From NCBI GenBank assembly GCA_008802785.1, contig VUYT01000060.1, positions 1-44,193 on the forward strand: 44,193 nt of DNA. The letters are read 5' to 3'. The DNA is from Symmetrospora coprosmae (taxonomy: Eukaryota; Basidiomycota; Cystobasidiomycetes; Symmetrosporaceae). Shown here piece by piece: positions 2,321 to 6,633 of this stretch (its first letter is position 1; every line of letters starts with the position of its first letter). Below the pieces are notes generated by a model that was given only the letters and a program-made list of their open reading frames with translations, made no database searches and was not told the DNA's origin. The position numbers and the translations under genes are program-made.

Positions 2321-4554
2321 ATGGAGGATGCAGCTGACGACCCTGCGGGGCCAAGCAGCAGCAAAATGCAGCTGGGAGATGCCGTTGTCAATGGCGCGGA
2401 TGGAGCAAAGCCAAAGAGGAGCCGGTCGCGCCGTGCTGGAAAAGGCAGAGAGGATGGCGAGGGCAGCATCAAGGAGACGGCGATGCCGATGCCAGCGACA
2501 GCAACAGCGACGACGAGAGCCATGGGGAAGACGCATGCTGCAGCAGCATCCTCACCCGATGGCAATAATGGCCACGGCGTCTATGCGCCTCCGAGCGATG
2601 CTGTCCGGGCTTACGCTCGTGCTCCGCCACCCTCAAAAATCACCACGGTAGGTTGTGCCATCCCCGTAGCAGCAGCCTTCGAGCTGGTTCAGCACGGACT
2701 CCCGCAGGTATACTGATGTGCTCTGTCTCGACTGCCTACTTCTGCCCTTTTCGCGCCTCTCCCTCGCCAATCTGGGTGGGTCCATGCGCCACCCGCTTTC
2801 CTTGACATCCCCCTCCTCCTGCCTACACAGAAGAACAAGAAGCTCGCTTCTCATCTGAACAGCATGGCAAAGCAGCAAAAGGCGTCGTCGACCGCAGCGT
2901 ACGAGCACGACTCGCTCCTCCTGCCTCAGGACGCGTCTAGCAGGCTGCAGGCAGAGACCGACCTCGAGCGGACATGGAGGGTGTCGCAGCAGGACATTGC
3001 CCAAGGCGTTGGTAGCTCGGCGGCAAAGAAGCACTTTGACCTCCGACTCAGCGACTTTGGACCCTACCAGCACGACTACACCGCAGACGGTCGGCACGTA
3101 GCCATCGCAGGCAGGAAAGGGCACGTTGCTACATTTGATTGGCAGGCGGGCAAGCTCGGGACCGAGCTTCACTTGAAGGAGACCGTCCGCGACATTACGT
3201 GGCTGCACAACACGTCCTTCTTTGCCGTCGCGCAGAAGAAGTATGTCTATATCTACGACTCGAACGGGCTAGAAGTGCACCAGCTCCGAAATCATATCGA
3301 GGTCACGCGCATGGAGTTCCTTCGCTATCATTTCCTGCTGGCGACCGTCGGCAACCCTGGCTTCCTGAAATACCAGGATACGTCCACGGGAAGCGTGGTG
3401 GCCGAGCATAGGACGCGTCTCGGAGCGTGTGCCACCATGGCCCAGAACCTACACTCTGGCGTCATCTCGCTCGGGCATGCCAATGGCACAGTCACCATGT
3501 GGACGCCGAACATCTCGACAGCGCAGGTCAAGCTGCTGGCTCATCAGGGCCCCGTCGCTGCCATAGCTCACGATCCGATGTCAATGGGGACGTACTTTGC
3601 CACGGCTGGCTTGGACGGGAGCATGAAGGTGTGGGATGCGAGAAAGTGGGGAGTCGTGAACGAGTGGAGCCTGCGAAGGCCTGCAAATGCGCTCGACTAT
3701 AGCCAGAAAGGCTTGCTCGCATGTGGATGGGGCAACCATGCGACCGTGAGTCAAGGCCTCCACCCGTACATTACGGCCAGGCATGATGCTTGGCGACGCA
3801 TCTCACGCGTGCGGTTATCTGCTTCTGGTTACAGGTTTACGCCGATACAACAAAGGCCAGTGTGCGAGCTCCTGGCCCTTACATGACCCAGCTCTTTCCC
3901 TCGACGCCGGTCAACTCGCTTGGGTTTTGCCCCTTCGAGGATGTCCTTGGTGTTGGGCACGCCAACGGCTTCTCCTCGCTCATCATTCCGGGTGCAGGAG
4001 AAGCGAATTACGACTCGCTCGAAGTCGATCCTTTCGAGTCCAAAAAATCTCGTCGGGAGCGCGAAGTCACCAGCCTCCTCGATAAGATCCAGCCGGATCA
4101 GATACATCTCGATCCAAATCTCATTGGCAAGCTGGCCGAGCGCAAGATCGAGACAGACGCTCTTGCTGGACTTACAGTCGGCGACCGTCGACTCGCTGCT
4201 CTGCCTCGGCAGAAGCAAAAGAGCTTTGCAGAGCTGTCGCGGGTGGAGAAGCTGCAGAAGAGCGGGCTCATCGAGGAAGACTCCGAAATCGAAGAGGACG
4301 ATGAGCAGGGCGATGAAGAAGCTGGCCCGGTCACTGTCGTCAATGGGGTCGAAGTCAGACCAAAGAAGCCAAGGGGCAAGAACAAGGTGCTCAAACGTAT
4401 CCTGAGGCGCAAGAAGAACATTATCGATGCCCGCACCGAGCAAATCAAGGAGCTGGTGGACGAGCGCCGACGAGCGACAATCGACAAGAAGCGGCAAGCC
4501 CAAGCTCAGCGGGCAGCCGAGAATGGCGATGCCCTAGCGCGCTTTGGCATCTAG
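2321..4554 (+). CDS. UTP7: U3 snoRNP / SSU processome WD-repeat protein Utp7 (WDR46/BING4 family)
   Basis: Nucleolar scaffold of the small-subunit processome, needed for 18S pre-rRNA processing. Exons 2321-2647, 2831-3745 and 3835-4554, all junctions in phase 0, give 653 residues; yeast Utp7 is about 554, and the excess is a low-complexity, Ala/Lys-rich N-terminus. The family N-terminal segment with KKNKKLASHL begins at residue 110, followed by the linker ending LERTWRVSQQDI. WD-type repeats span roughly residues 180-400 (HVATFDW, VTMWTP, GLDGSMKVWDARKW). The BING4CT domain starts at about 415 (PVNSLGFCPFEDVLGVGHANG, split here as PVNSLGFCPF and EDVLGVGHANG). An acidic patch (EEDDEQGDEE) and a basic, coiled C-terminus follow. 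Start 2321 is the first in-frame ATG; 2366 is an alternative because of the adjacent TATAAAA. It converges on the DUF1295 gene, 146 nt away. Confidence 0.95.
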
Positions 4555-4700: not shown

Positions 4701-6633
4701 CTACTGTCGCTTAGGTTTCGGCTTGCCGCTTCCGTAAACCTGCTCGTTCACTTTGCTCAACTGGCCCGTGACACCAAGCCACATTCCCTTGAGCGTCGTC
4801 ATGATGGGGCTGTTCCAGTGAGTGTCCCGGAAACGAGTCAGCATGGAATGAGCAGCCACGCTACGCGAGAAGCAGAATACGCACAGGAACATGCCGACTC
4901 GGCGCTGGTATTCCCTGTACTTTGGATACTTGCCAGCAGAGATGGCCTCTGTGAGAAGCGTGCTGCAGAAGAAAAGGCTCGACATGCTGATGCCGGCAAT
5001 CCACGAATAGTTGAGCAAATGGGGCGCGGCGGCTTTGAGAGCGTTGACAATGTGGATGGGGTCCCTGAGGTCGAAGCTCGTACGAGCGCTCTGCCAGATC
5101 TTCTCAAAGACTACTTCGGGGACCGTTGCACGCAGGGTGAACAGGCTCAGGATCCAGAAATTGAGTTGCTCATGCAGGAAGTTCTGATGACACTTCAATC
5201 AGCACACTGACGAGTGCATCGATTGGAATTCGATGCAGGCAAGGGCTCACCGGGTGACGACTGTACGACCACAGGCCCGAAGTCAGGAAACCCCGCTTGA
5301 GATCGCCCTCAGCCACCTCAACCTGACGACGCGAAGCTCCCGCAATGACGCGGGCTCCCTTGCCCTCCTTGACAGCTTTTGAGTGCTTCCAATTCTGAAA
5401 TGCTTGCTGCTGAGAGTCGGCAATCTGCGCATGGACAGACGACATGCACTTGCTCGGTGCAGGCTCTACGCTTTTCAGGAGAGAAACGCAAACTCACCTG
5501 CTCCATCGTCAAGTTGAGCACAAAAAGACCGGCGATGGCAAAGTCTGGCCAGCCGACCGGAGTGGGCGGATTGGCAGGGTGGTAAGCCCTGGTCGCCGCT
5601 GTAATGAGCGGAGAGGGTTGAGCGGAGATCAGCGCGCCTGCCTAATCATGCCAAGCTTTCGCCTCTGTACGCACTGAGGAGCAAGTACTGGGGAAGCTGT
5701 GGATCGAGCATCGGAACGCAAGGTCAGCAGATCTGTCATGGGCAGATGGGCCAGAGCATGGCGGACGCACCGCGGTCATCAGGAGCAGATAGTTCTGACC
5801 AAATGCGACAAAGAAGAAGTCGAGAATGGCAAAGTTGAGATGGCCGAGCTTGTTGCGGACGATGGGCCATCTGTAGTCCTCCTTTGTCCAGTCAAAGAAG
5901 CCCCTGCGGACAGTGTTGCCAGAGAGGCGGATGGACCAGAGTACCTGGAGGAGGAAGACGAGGAACATGCGCTCGTCTACTCCGTTGGGTACGAGCGACT
6001 GCCAGAGGGAAGGTACAACGCTGTCGGTCGTGCCGGCGGTGCCGCTGTTCTTGCCGAAAATGTTGGCTACGCTCCCTGCTCCAGACCATTTGCCGTGGAA
6101 AGTGAAGTGGGCCGAGTAGAGGAGAGGCCAGAAGGACCTGTGGATGTGAGGATACAGTGTCAATGCGAGGGGACTTCGGGGATGCGCCTTGGCCTTCGCC
6201 CAAGGGGGGCCAAGGGGCGGCTCACCAGACTCTGGAGGACAGTCGCCGCAGACATGCCATGCGATGACCCTTGTGTCAGCAGTGTGCCTCGCTCATTTAA
6301 ACGTGTCCAAGCACGATGACAAGCTGCAGCCACACACCGGTCCACGGTACTTGCGTTCTGGGTGAGCTGGCCGACAATGAAGGTAAAGACCGAGAACCAG
6401 GTCGCGAAAGTGAGGGCCGAGTGGAGGGGCTCTGTGTGAGCATACCAATCCTTCACGAGAGTTGTGCTAGACGCATAGTCCCAGCGCTTTGCAATGTTCT
6501 TCCAGTTGTCGATGCTGGTTGCGAACTCGCCCGCCCTGGATGCCCAGAGCTTGAGGCCCGGGACGAGGTGTGTCGCCGACCTGACAGCTGGATGAGGTGG
6601 AGGCAGTCCTCCGTAGCCTGTGCTTGTGCCCAT
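4701..6633 (-). CDS. DUF1295 family membrane protein (steroid 5-alpha-reductase-like)
   Basis: Polytopic membrane protein of the DUF1295 superfamily, relatives of sterol/steroid reductases; the substrate is unknown. My model has seven exons, listed 5' to 3' on the minus strand: 6633-6338, 6231-6226, 6137-5771, 5696-5675, 5598-5498, 5424-5251, 5183-4701, giving 482 residues with all phases consistent. Seen in the sequence: a VDR-VW-SFWPLLYS block, where the VW is supplied by the 6-nt exon; WTKEDYRWPIVRNKLG; and the family signature GLWSYSRHP-NF across the exon 6/7 junction (residues about 315-324). Hydrophobic spans occur throughout (for example FSVFTFIVGQL, FLVFLLQVLWSIRL, FAIAGLFVLNL). The end of the protein is basic (KPKPKRQ). 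The 22-nt exon 4 is the least certain piece; it restores frame and reads LPQYLLL. Confidence 0.87.
6226..6231 (-). other. 6-nt microexon in the DUF1295 gene
   Basis: Exon 1 ends in phase 2 after VD (CG|gtgtgt). The hexamer AGTCTG is bounded by ..ctccag and gtgag.. and completes R-V-W before the next exon's SFWPLL. Introns of 106 and 88 nt on either side are normal for this window. Family members I know carry VDR-hydrophobic-W-S here, so the hexamer restores a conserved tryptophan. Skipping it would keep the frame but remove VW. Confidence 0.75.

Follow-up and report, generated by a model that had tools for sequence, protein, structure and literature searches.

The window analysed here is a stretch of 44,193 nucleotides of Symmetrospora coprosmae DNA, taken from a genome assembly of 20.05 Mb in 77 contigs. 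The genome has 15 matches to the Pfam family Fungal_trans, against none in 14 control genomes, a fungal signature in keeping with its short GT-AG introns. On its minus strand lies a DUF1295 gene of seven exons and 482 codons, running from an ATG at 6633 to a TAG at 4701, with exon lengths in order of 296, 6, 367, 22, 101, 174 and 483 nt and introns of 106, 88, 74, 76, 73 and 67 nt, every one GT-AG. Exon 1 (6338-6633, ATG at 6633-6631) closes in phase 2 on GAC CG, and its end aligns to FIVGEITKNNSQMDK of a bacterial homologue. Intron 1 (6232-6337) runs from GTGTGT to CTCCAG, the 6-nt exon AGTCTG occupies 6226-6231, and intron 2 (6138-6225, GTGAGC to CCACAG) leads into exon 3 (5771-6137), which begins with GTCCTTCTGG. 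Exon 4 (5675-5696; CTTCCCCAGTACTTGCTCCTCA) is a second microexon; its residues QNYLLLMTALPQYLLLTA align gaplessly with the bacterial profile, and because its 22 nt are not divisible by three, skipping it breaks the frame. Exons 5 (5498-5598) and 6 (5251-5424) follow, the latter with SRHP at its end, and exon 7 (4701-5183) opens with the N of RHPN, a motif that spans the exon 6/7 junction and is invariant across the 29 sequences of alignment A1 (see below). DUF1295 (PF06966) membrane proteins possibly share the sterol reductase / steroid 5-alpha-reductase (SRD5A) / ICMT fold. On the plus strand, a convergent neighbour with a BING4CT (NUC141) domain (3787-4554) ends about 150 bases from the DUF1295 stop, and a run of 14 C (6682-6669, minus strand) lies 35 bases 5' of the DUF1295 start codon.

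The hexamer AGTCTG is found on the minus strand at 6231-6226, where the preliminary description had placed it, in the context CTCCAG/AGTCTG/GTGAGC; exon 1 meets intron 1 as GAC CG/GTGTGT at 6338, and intron 2 meets exon 3 as CCACAG/GTCC at 6137. Spliced in, the hexamer is read as CG/A GTC TG/G, giving R-V-W, such that it contributes the last base of the arginine codon, the whole valine codon and the first two bases of the tryptophan codon. The protein then reads STVDRVWSFWP (482 aa, STVDRVWSFWPLLY), and its skipped counterpart STVDRSFWP (480 aa, STVDRSFWPLLY); as had been pointed out, a length of 6 nt leaves the reading frame intact on skipping. The preliminary description had the hexamer turning VD-SFW into VDRVWSFW. 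The gain of V-W stands, but the form without the hexamer is VDR-SFW rather than VD-SFW, the arginine being kept because CG/G also codes for R. Both forms pass the Pfam gathering cut-off for DUF1295 (20.4 bits), the included form with 100.4 and the skipped form with 94.0 bits, and only the included form carries the D-x-x-W motif of the family, as VDRVW.

Homologues supply the main evidence on whether the hexamer belongs in the protein. A tblastn search against plasmids gave four matches, the best of them a Tenericutes plasmid reading ITKNNSQMDKLWSILPIVYA; three of the four start at query residue 149 or 161, past the motif. The included form aligns to the plasmid homologue without a gap at the hexamer (111 bits, 26% identity), whereas in the skipped form (102 bits) a 2-residue gap opens at precisely that point. 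A homologue scan of genomes yielded 11 bacterial loci, one being the same Tenericutes plasmid, and all 11 read D-K-[L/I]-W-S-[I/L]-L-P at the hexamer position; because the search patterns included KNNSQMDK, which adjoins the W column, these loci are biased to conserved neighbours. A profile built from them scores the included form at 145.5 bits and the skipped form, which again needs a 2-residue gap, at 135.6. A wider sample was drawn from PF06966 matches in 149 genomes of one phylum, that of the L013 genome (titled Treponema sp.), 73 of which exceeded the cut-off; W is present in 24 of the 30 loci (L043-L072) taken from among the best matches, and three of these rows (L066, L071 and L072) read DRLWS.

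In a joint alignment of 48 homologue rows, 47 carry the D and 41 the W of the D-x-x-W motif; one row has a gap in place of D, and W is replaced by Y in four rows and by G in three. When the duplicates L017, L018, L019 and L022 are set aside, W is found in 37 of 44. Alignment A1 comprises 29 of the 48 rows and leaves out the four duplicates, L015, whose coordinates include a stop, and 14 hand-picked, mostly low-scoring rows. The "invariant" tryptophan of A1 is no independent evidence, because all seven rows without W are among those left out. The homologue alignment at this position, proposed earlier as a check, was thus run on prokaryotic sequences and fits the included form without a gap, with seven of 48 rows lacking the tryptophan. 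The gapless alignment and the higher profile scores bear out the earlier claim that a normal DUF1295 protein requires the hexamer, and the tryptophan that it supplies is indeed the conserved one. Every homologue used is prokaryotic and distant (26% identity in the case of the plasmid homologue). Single-protein scans of the genome-contig and viral-contig collections with the fungal protein as query returned no relatives, and a PDB sequence search with the DUF1295 protein returned no match.

Splice signals were scored with a model trained on 252 kb of the source genome, in a single run with an altered codon model and looser thresholds, the preceding version having called no introns. The search was limited to introns of at most 130 nt, and the 78 introns called (median 73 nt) are themselves predictions, skewed to strong sites. 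Measured against these 78, intron 1 is weak at both ends, with a donor GTGTGT of 5.80 bits (2.6th percentile) and an acceptor of 3.30 bits (1.3rd percentile); GTGTGT serves as donor in 2 of the 78. Comparably weak acceptors occur elsewhere in the gene, at introns 4 and 6 (3.54 and 2.33 bits), and intron 2 is ordinary (donor 7.96, acceptor 8.63 bits). Among 5-mers, CTGAC shows the strongest enrichment towards the 3' ends of the called introns and is present in 37 of 78. Intron 1 contains a branch-like CTGAC whose A, at 6276, lies 44 nt from the 3' end of the intron, a distance inside the observed spread, though far out in it; intron 2 contains TTGAC, whose A at 6160 lies 22 nt from the end, and CTCAC at 9 nt. 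The minus strand also shows a twin donor, GTGTGT (6337-6332), and a twin acceptor, AGAG (6233-6230). Three sequence features of a spliceosomal microexon are present: a length of at most 30 nt (here 6 nt, or 4 nt in the rival reading discussed below), flanking introns that are both canonical GT-AG and contain a branch-like site, the intron 1 sites being weak, and a conserved protein sequence that depends on inclusion, as judged with prokaryotic homologues only.

We enumerated the splice forms possible between exons 1 and 3, comprising 121 one-intron and 594 two-intron GT/AG combinations with a minimum intron of 45 nt, of which 191 proteins remain open. Under the 11-homologue profile the 6-nt exon leads with 145.5, followed by a 4-nt exon with 145.2, and skipping comes fourth (135.6); under the 30-locus PF06966 profile the 4-nt exon is first (112.1), the 6-nt exon second (111.8) and skipping 21st (103.3); and under a profile of L066, L071 and L072, which are three rows of the 30-locus profile, the 6-nt exon (122.3) again ranks above the 4-nt exon (122.2), which is second, and skipping falls to 13th (112.2). 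The two forms that give VDR-x-WS hold the top two ranks of 191 under all three profiles. The protein evidence demands a microexon ending at 6226 and leaves 6 and 4 nt undifferentiated, with gaps of at most 0.3 bit.

The 4-nt exon, overlooked in the preliminary description, would consist of TCTG at 6229-6226, with exon 1 extended to 6336, a donor starting at 6335 and an acceptor formed by the second AG of AGAG (6231-6230), and would give the protein VDRFWSFWP. Its protein scores match those of the 6-nt exon under each profile (145.2 vs 145.5, 112.1 vs 111.8 and 122.2 vs 122.3), and splice-site strength is the only thing that favours 6 nt. Here its donor GTGTGG (0.04 bits) and acceptor (2.64 bits) fall below the 5.80 and 3.30 bits of the 6-nt exon, a sum 6.4 bits worse; the acceptor is a GAG, a trinucleotide that ends one of the 78 called introns against 71 for CAG; and both shifted sites are needed at once, as one shifted and one unshifted site break the frame. 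We consider a 4-nt exon very unlikely on these grounds. There is a similarly slight chance that the locus makes use of several forms, such that the twin donor and twin acceptor would yield either the 6-nt (R-V-W) or the 4-nt (R-F-W) exon, alongside some skipping, which the weak intron 1 sites would permit; three proteins could then be made, in proportions that may be regulated.

The preliminary description had also raised regulated inclusion, in which a two-residue V-W switch would turn the protein on or off by condition. The frame-preserving length and the weak intron 1 sites are compatible with such a switch, and some skipping is plausible because the acceptor at 6138 (8.63 bits) is far stronger than that of the microexon (3.30 bits). 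Precedents can be cited as well: a 20-nt microexon of Xlr2 in Trichoderma virens is described as glucose-controlled (PMC11121469), and basidiomycetes do skip exons. In Ustilago maydis skipping accounts for 12 events out of 193 (PMC2219887), and a junction analysis of Schizophyllum commune lists 1,527 coding cases of it in a total of 15,054 primary events (PMC5034255). However, skipping costs the protein the conserved W and the D-x-x-W spacing, a loss that argues against a second working form, and the same Schizophyllum commune report puts exon skipping at 1% of assembled coding events. Regulated inclusion is very unlikely in our view.

Least favoured among the rival readings is a single 200-nt intron, 6337-6138, in which the hexamer would be intronic noise and the protein would lack V-W. 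Its acceptor at 6138 is strong, its donor at 6337 is common to the microexon form, and it keeps the frame. Yet every profile or pairwise comparison places it 6 to 10 bits below the included form, it removes a residue that 41 of the 48 rows share, and its length of 200 nt is well above the 73-nt median of introns called in a search limited to at most 130 nt. We also asked how often chance would offer an equally good rescue, by shuffling the interval with the outer splice sites fixed and the dinucleotide content preserved. Some GT-AG form reached the local profile score of the included form (at least 25.0) in only 4 of 500 shuffles, splice strength being ignored. In 20,000 shuffles, an R-x-W hexamer arose in 2.8%, one with x as V, L, I, M or F in 0.57%, and one with hydrophobic x plus a combined splice score as good in none; the figure of 4 in 500 is the fairer one, because the hexamer pattern was set after seeing the case. 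Taken together, these comparisons make a single intron very unlikely. Two further candidates were rejected by reading the sequence: retention of intron 1 leaves the frame open but reaches 6226 in phase 0 where exon 3 needs phase 2, and a stwintron (an intron nested in an intron) fails because any such nested splicing takes out a single unbroken stretch, and N-NNN-TG beside exon 3 can be supplied neither by the bases that follow 6338 nor by those that precede 6137.

We interpret AGTCTG as very probably a real, normally included 6-nt spliceosomal exon of a fungal DUF1295 gene, with 6337-6138 made up of two short GT-AG introns; this assessment is drawn from sequence comparison, and the exon is most likely constitutive. 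Each short intron would most likely be recognised across the intron, as expected in fungi, and where short introns are defined one by one, the size of the exon between them matters little. The two introns would probably be removed one after another, since both machineries cannot occupy 6 nt at once, and the stronger intron 2 probably leaves first. Its removal would fuse AGTCTG to exon 3, whereupon intron 1 would gain an ordinary downstream exon, and the final product with the hexamer would carry the conserved D-x-x-W motif. Because the conserved tryptophan is lost with the hexamer, a protein made by skipping is probably defective rather than a second working form, and we regard a working second isoform as unlikely.

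Exons of this size have been described before, and the hexamer is a clear but ordinary example. The preliminary view that six nucleotides lie near the lower limit for spliceosomal recognition overstates the case, given that 1-nt exons are documented in a fungus (PMC12940212) and in plants (PMC8831610). In P450 genes of the basidiomycete Phanerochaete chrysosporium, the shortest exon is 6 bp (2 aa) and microexons code for 2-10 aa (PMC1184071); that case resembles ours in being fungal, with many short introns and a 6-bp exon, and differs in that the genes encode P450s rather than a DUF1295 protein. The 1-nt exon of Fusarium CYP621A is supported by transcript reads and needed for the frame, and was suspected from an intron more than twice the median length together with an incomplete motif (PMC12940212). 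The two cases share a tiny exon within a conserved motif and an over-long apparent intron as the clue, whereas the present exon is 6 nt, frame-neutral and known from sequence alone. The Xlr2 microexon of Trichoderma virens likewise completes a conserved domain in a fungus, being 20 nt long and reportedly regulated by glucose (PMC11121469). Plant microexons, including 1-nt exons of APC11 and VPS55, are similarly presented as very small, missed by annotation and needed for gene function, but they belong to the plant lineage and are conserved across species (PMC8831610). In the accessible text of two Cryptococcus papers, microexons appear only as a read-mapping setting (PMC3990503, PMC8022950). 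No report of a DUF1295 microexon was found in the open-licence literature, in which the two terms were never searched in combination.

The case carries a practical lesson: an exon that could drop out of a gene model without any frame error, leaving a protein short of one conserved residue, is exposed here by homology alone. It suggests scanning fungal introns more than twice the usual length for hidden tiny exons, a clue shared with the Fusarium case (PMC12940212). The biology of the DUF1295 gene is otherwise ordinary. The same genome holds a second DUF1295 match (G000:C6:143430-143597, L003), which covers profile positions 106-161 only.
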